A stretch of DNA of 34,020 bases, from assembly GCA_014382445.1 (NCBI GenBank), contig JACNJS010000008.1, positions 1 through 34,020 of the forward strand, read 5' to 3'. Source of the DNA: Bacteroidota bacterium (lineage in GTDB: Bacteria > Bacteroidota > Bacteroidia > Bacteroidales > F082). Position numbers and translations under genes: made by a program. The notes under the pieces were generated by a model. That model did no database searches and had not been told where the DNA came from. It was given only the letters and a program-made list of their open reading frames with translations. Shown piece by piece: positions 32,436 to 34,020 of the stretch. Positions within the stretch are counted from its first letter, which is position 1. Each line of letters opens with the position of its first letter.

Positions 32436-33890
32436 ATGATAACAAAAGAACTCACGCATCCCGGAAGCATTGTTGTTGTTGGCGGATCGGAAGATTTACA
32501 TAAACCGGGAGGTAGTATAATCAGTAACCTTATCAATGGAAATTTTGGAGGGAAACTTTATGTTCTCAACCCCAAGGCAAGCAAAGTACAGGGCATAATT
32601 AGTTACAGGAGCCTGGAACAATTACCCAATGTTGATTTAGCTATTATTGCTATTGCTGCAAAATATATACCCGAAACGGTTGAGTATTTAGCGCAGAATA
32701 AAAATACCAAAGCATTTATTATACTATCGGCAGGTTTTAGTGAAGAAAGTCACGAAGGGAAATTATTGGAGGATAGGGTAGTGGCATCTGTAAACAAAGT
32801 TGGAGGATCGTTAATTGGCCCTAATTGTATCGGAATACTTACACCTCAGCATCATAGTATTTTTACCTTACCAATTCCAAAATTAAACCCCTCAGGTTGT
32901 GATTTAATTTCCGGCTCGGGGGCAACCGCGGCTTTTATAATGGAAGCTGGTATACCAAAGGGCTTACAGTTTGCTAACGTTTATTCTGTTGGCAATTCAG
33001 CTCAGTTGGGTGTTGAAGAAATTATTAAACACATGGACGAGAATTTCAACACGGAAACCGATTCAAAAGTTAAGCTGCTGTACCTTGAAAACATCGACAA
33101 ACCGCAGATGCTGTTAAAGCATGCCACTTCTCTTATAAAAAAAGGTTGCAGAATTGCCGCTGTTAAAGCCGGTGCGTCGGAAGCTGGAAGCAGGGCGGCA
33201 TCTTCTCATACCGGAGCTCTGGCCAGTTCAGATGTGGCTGTTGATGCTCTGTTTAATAAAGCAGGTATTGTAAGATGCTATGGACGTGAAGATCTAATAA
33301 GCGTTGCCTCCGTATTTACATATCCTGAGGTAGTAGGTAAAAATATAGCTGTGATAACACATGCAGGCGGGCCGGCTGTAATGCTTACTGATACTCTGTC
33401 GAGCGGGGGTTTAAGCGTTCCACGTATTGAGGGTAAAGATGCCGATAGTTTGAAAGATCAACTTTTTCCAGGTTCTTCGGTTTCGAACCCCATTGATTTT
33501 TTAGCAACAGGAACAGCAGAACAATTAGGCATTATAATCGATTATGTTGATAATAAATTCGATAATATCGATGCTATGGTAGTGATATTTGGCACACCGG
33601 GATTATTCAAAATATTTGATGTTTACGAACTTCTTGCAAAAAAGATTTCAAATTCCAAAAAACCTATTTTTCCTGTGCTTCCTTCGGTACAGACTGCAAA
33701 AGAGGAAGTTGATACTTTTGTTGCAGGAGGCGGCGTTTATTTTGCTGATGAAGTAACTCTTGGTAACGCATTAGCGAGAGTAAGTAATGCCTCTAAACCA
33801 TCAATGGAATTCAAAACAGAAGTTGAGATTGATATAAATAAAATCAGGAATATTGTAGAAAACTCTGATAATGGTTACTTATCTCCTGAG
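32436..33890 (+). CDS. ADP-forming acetyl/acyl-CoA synthetase, 3' end lost at a junction
   Basis: About 485 residues remain. A CoA-binding Rossmann domain begins at residue 8 ([19 protein letters not shown]), with VYVLNPK-type and [17 protein letters not shown] segments. A succinyl-CoA ligase-like domain follows (about 148-320, [29 protein letters not shown]) with His258 in [13 protein letters not shown], the position phosphorylated in characterised ADP-forming acetyl-CoA synthetases. A third domain ([30 protein letters not shown]) reaches to about 470. The ATP-grasp domain that should follow is absent: after NGYLSPE the sequence switches to GC-rich DNA coding for another protein. The enzyme would interconvert acyl-CoA, ADP and phosphate with acid, CoA and ATP. 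No stop codon occurs before the window ends because the foreign segment happens to be in frame. Confidence 0.85.
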
Positions 33891-34020
33891 CTGGAGGAGG
33901 CCGGCGCCGACATCATCCTGTCCAACACCCTGCACCTCGTGGCCCGGCCCGGCACGCCGCTGATCCGCGAGCAGGGCGGGCTGCACCGGTTCATGGGCTG
34001 GAACAAGCCGATCCTCGTGG
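33888..34020 (+). CDS. tgt: Internal fragment of tRNA-guanine transglycosylase, foreign GC-rich DNA
   Basis: The last 130 or so bases are about 71% G+C (85 of the last 120 bases by hand count), while the host DNA is near 35%. The frame reads [20 protein letters not shown], then [20 protein letters not shown] and ILV. This matches the tRNA-guanine transglycosylase region with the NTxHLxxRPG and GGLHxFMxWxxPIL motifs, which comes just before the DSGGFQ active-site segment (past the window end). The enzyme exchanges guanine for a queuosine precursor in tRNA anticodons. Both ends are missing. The exact border is blurred by the shared GAGCTGGAGGAG stretch at about 33887-33899. It is most likely joined to the preceding gene artificially. 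Confidence 0.85.

Follow-up and report, generated by a model that had tools for sequence, protein, structure and literature searches.

Chimeric contigs, in which unrelated genomes are joined abruptly with a step in composition and truncated genes, are a known class of error in metagenome assembly. The 3′ end of the contig described here bears the same signs and differs in that the part that appears foreign is confined to the terminal 130 bases. The terms for chimeric and misassembled metagenome contigs are used, for example, in PMC5390407. The gene to the left of the join shares its CoA-binding and succinyl-CoA-ligase-like domains with the ADP-forming acetate/acyl-CoA synthetase family (TIGR02717, NF045494 and kin), but retains codons 1-485 only, the ATP-grasp half being found on another contig, C88. 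Compared with the bacterial tRNA-guanine transglycosylase Tgt (TIGR00430), the tail to the right of the join is an internal fragment and not a gene.

The window, i.e. the whole stretch of DNA analyzed, is the entire contig C12 (34,020 bases) of a 3.47 Mb genome in 97 contigs, with ratings of 96.01 for completeness and 0.79 for contamination. Only 130 bases separate the junction from the contig end, and the tail stops exactly where the contig does, at 34,020. A border this near the window's end might have been made outside the assembly, by cutting or concatenating the window; the contig record itself, however, is 34,020 bases long and includes the tail, making this extremely unlikely. A single open frame runs from an ATG at 32,436 to the end of the window (528 codons), and the reading frame is thus kept across the border as originally predicted. 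A random join would do so in 1 of 3 cases. The coordinates of the features are given in Table 1.

Table 1. Features around the join at the 3′ end of the window.
Feature	Position	Strand	Basis
ADP-forming acetate/acyl-CoA synthetase-type gene, 5′ part, codons 1-485 of about 688	32436..33890	+	Pfam CoA_binding_2 and Succ_CoA_lig; protein identity to relatives
Junction, very probably chimeric	33888..33891		Likeness to 17 relatives stops at about codon 485; composition change point 33,882-33,889
GC-rich tail, very probably foreign, internal tgt fragment running off the contig end	33891..34020	+	PF01702, TIGR00430, G+C 70.8%, GC3

The base composition changes sharply at the join. The original prediction of a jump from about 35% to about 71% G+C was borne out by measurement, with 35.3% over 33,421-33,890 vs. 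70.8% over 33,891-34,020. A one-change-point fit to the last 600 bases placed the step at 33,882-33,889 (the five best positions), with a log-likelihood ratio of 27.4 vs. a maximum of 8.7 in 200 permutations. The step is not a chance fluctuation, since none of the 8,006 N-free interior stretches of 131 bases in the fetched parts of the genome exceeded 58.0% G+C. Codon usage, which had been said to differ completely between the two sides, indeed does so: the third position is G or C in 43/43 codons of the tail vs. 144/485 in the synthetase part. This extreme GC3 points to a GC-rich bacterium as the source of the tail. That the two sides stem from different phyla, the subject of one of the suggested checks, is likely from composition, while the best database hits did not show it. 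Among the 180 N-free contig ends (of 194), the C12 tail is the lone outlier at 71% G+C, the next being at 53%. Foreign tails are therefore not a systematic feature of contig ends in this assembly (1/180 N-free ends), as far as tails of deviating composition, the kind this test sees, are concerned. The host side reaches to about codon 485 by homology, the codons beyond being unlike those of relatives. It should be noted that codon 485 itself (GAG, 33,888-33,890) is compatible with both sides, leaving the exact junction base uncertain by a few positions.

A Pfam scan of the window frame matched CoA_binding_2 and Succ_CoA_lig and then TGT, in agreement with the proposed passage from the end of a CoA ligase into a tRNA-guanine transglycosylase. 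No ATP-grasp match was listed in this frame at E up to 0.1, and the claim that this domain is missing thus holds; a full-length relative of the same genus, L009, carries ATP-grasp_5 at residues 482-683. Of the three domains of the family (CoA-binding, succinyl-CoA-ligase-like and ATP-grasp), two are on C12 and the third is on C88, as judged from 77% identity to L009. The synthetase part was 75-82% identical at the protein level to genes in 6 of 7 same-genus relatives, the seventh (G002) having no match. Its scores fall below the NCBIfam cut-offs, as do those of the full-length L009, and therefore no substrate is assigned. The genome has three more synthetase paralogues, L004 on C38, L005 on C5 and L006 on C75, with frames of 698, 897 and 718 aa, respectively; several relatives likewise carry a longer paralogue, its frame measuring about 895-931 aa vs. 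the usual length of about 690. Upstream of the synthetase, a 1,399-codon frame (27973-32172 of the window) resembles by eye a multi-sensor hybrid histidine kinase that has a receiver-like stretch at each end.

The 44 codons at 33,888-34,019 match the TGT family PF01702 (E 8.6e-12) at model positions 36-78 of 357, short of a whole TGT domain and starting in mid-domain, just as had been noticed. Against TIGR00430, 43/44 residues match positions 43-85 of 368, with 45.7 bits vs. a whole-protein cut-off of 306.75. Among sequences of solved structures matched at E up to 1, 50/51 were tRNA-guanine transglycosylases; the last (E 0.011) was an unrelated light-harvesting subunit. The host has its own tgt gene on C75, with a frame of 398 aa and a match to model positions 2-354 of 357 (E 1.1e-153). 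The tail does not derive from this gene, since the two are only 56% identical over 41 residues at the peptide level. A search of the genome's own DNA with 33,000-34,020 returned the window itself as the sole match, and the other contigs, as far as they were fetched, contained no 21-mer of the tail. The exact tail pattern gave 0 matches in genome_contigs and 0 in viral_contigs, and a degenerate pattern for a 12-residue tail peptide (arginine as CGN only) gave 0 in genome_contigs. A distant DNA search of plasmids with the tail found one record, from Sphingomonas (72.7% identity over 87%). At the protein level, 50 plasmid records matched (best identity among the 30 listed 65.9%, in Listeria), as did 15 records of a phage collection (best among the 10 listed 69.8%, in a 'Bacteriophage sp.' record). 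These hits support the assignment to the tgt family, and each is too distant to be named as the donor.

The missing half of the synthetase was found in the same genome. A search with L009 residues 468-688 matched the minus strand of C88 at 143887-144444 (E 1.1e-90, 77% identity), beginning at residue 498, 5 bases from the end of this 144,449-base contig. Of the five other matches, those on C38, C75 and C5 (37-38%) are the paralogues also found with the first half; the remaining two, on C12 and C89, have E values of 0.5 and 0.8 and do not rise above chance. Read by eye from its end, C88 opens on two bases of codon 496, with codon 497 next, and the frame continues to a stop codon, with a C-terminus resembling that of relatives. 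The spacing between G480 and R498 is constant in 17/19 relative loci examined; the other two were dropped from the comparison. If spacing here is as in those 17, the gap from codon 485 on C12 to the first base of C88 is 31 nt. C12 and C88 neither overlap nor touch, and the evidence that they are adjacent comes from homology and gene order. Out of the 33 relatives having the gene, we fetched four neighborhoods (L168-L171), one of them from G009, a genome in a single contig. In 4/4, the C12 synthetase part is followed collinearly by the part at the C88 end and then by the next C88 gene (142,444-143,757). The genes upstream on C12 were not beside the synthetase in these four neighborhoods, except for a partial 35% kinase match in L168, and the conserved order is therefore one-sided, on the C88 side. 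Judged from sequence comparison, the 3′ ends of C12 and C88 are most likely neighbors in the real genome, the 130-base tail being foreign to that spot. The continuation on C88 and this gene order agree with the chimera originally put forward.

A real rearrangement, in which foreign tgt-bearing DNA was inserted into the synthetase gene in the organism or a sub-strain, would likewise leave the gene's second half at another place, here C88, and would account for a join that is clean and in frame. In this case, however, one would expect a second border, and no tail of such composition is seen at the 179 other N-free contig ends. On C88, the second half of the gene begins right at the contig end and is preceded by no foreign sequence, only about 31 nt of the gene being missing, and an internal tgt piece explains the full length of the tail. 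We thus consider an insertion of this kind very unlikely. No likelier is a variant in which GC-rich foreign DNA is truly inserted in the gene of a minority strain and the assembler took that branch for 130 bases.

The gene is whole in most relatives. Searched with the 528-codon frame, 33 of 40 relatives matched the synthetase part at E below 1e-150, and the open frame is 686-716 aa long in 31 of these 33, the exceptions being G007 (477 aa) and G030 (576 aa). In none of the 40 did a match cover both the synthetase and the tgt part, which was the check suggested for the junction in related genomes. Strong synthetase matches stop by query residue 493, while tgt matches begin at residue 479 at the earliest and at other places in the genomes; matches from either side thus overrun codon 485 by a few residues. 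A weak match in G028 (residues 404-496, E 1.2e-4) reaches 11 residues beyond the border and contains five internal stop codons; it probably represents a decayed copy or arose by chance. In L169, one local tblastn alignment extends to residue 518; since this locus carries a full-length gene, the alignment is a loose extension over the normal start of the ATP-grasp domain. In the same-genus relative G007, the orthologous synthetase (L013, C38:6171-9073) runs off its contig at codon 467, near the break seen here. This is possibly a poorly covered or hard-to-assemble place.

These comparisons also bear on whether the frame could encode a genuine acyl-CoA synthetase-TGT fusion protein. Both parts do lie within one open frame, but the tgt part begins inside its domain, at model position 36 of 357, the two sides differ entirely in codon use (GC3 of 43/43 vs. 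144/485), the fusion occurs in 0/40 relatives, and the ATP-grasp half is located on C88. We give virtually no credence to such a protein; what looks like a fusion is, almost certainly, artefactual rather than biological.

The best explanation, in which we have very high confidence, is that a chimeric read, a chimeric library fragment or a comparable misjoin by the assembler attached 130 bases of foreign DNA to the host gene at the end of C12, and that the synthetase gene is whole in the real genome, continuing after about 31 nt into the end of C88. The two sides come from different genomes, as indicated by G+C content, GC3 and the host's own tgt gene on C75, the true continuation of the host side lies elsewhere in the assembly (C88:143887-144444), and the join is absent from independent genomes among the 40 relatives. 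A chimeric read or fragment from another member of the community would have been retained at the contig end. Both an origin of the join in the library or the assembly, rather than in a cell, and a community member as donor are presumed in this scheme. A chimeric read or fragment at a weakly covered place would fit best, and the 31-nt gap to C88, all that the synthetase gene would lose between the two contigs, would fit poor coverage.

Exact overlaps between contig ends provide an indication of how the assembly was made. Among the 180 ends, 15 pairs share an exact overlap, 55 bases long in 13 pairs, 51 in one and 52 in another. These pairs include neither of the two ends of C12 and also not the 3′ end of C88. 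The 55-base overlaps suggest a de Bruijn assembler of the SPAdes type, run with k = 55. The two sides of the join share at most about a codon, judging from the sequences of relatives. With so little in common, they are unlikely to have been joined at this k through an exact overlap or shared repeat, and the join more likely stems from a chimeric read or fragment.

The observation is thus real, with an artefact as its very probable cause, in agreement with the original reading. Its consequences concern data quality only: automatic gene calling would give a false synthetase-TGT fusion together with a truncated synthetase, and a 130-base foreign tail easily escapes genome-level estimates of contamination (0.79% here). 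What is gained is a border defined to within a few bases, its setting at a contig end and a likely true neighbor contig. C12 can be trusted up to about 33,890, and its 3′ end most likely belongs beside the 3′ end of C88.
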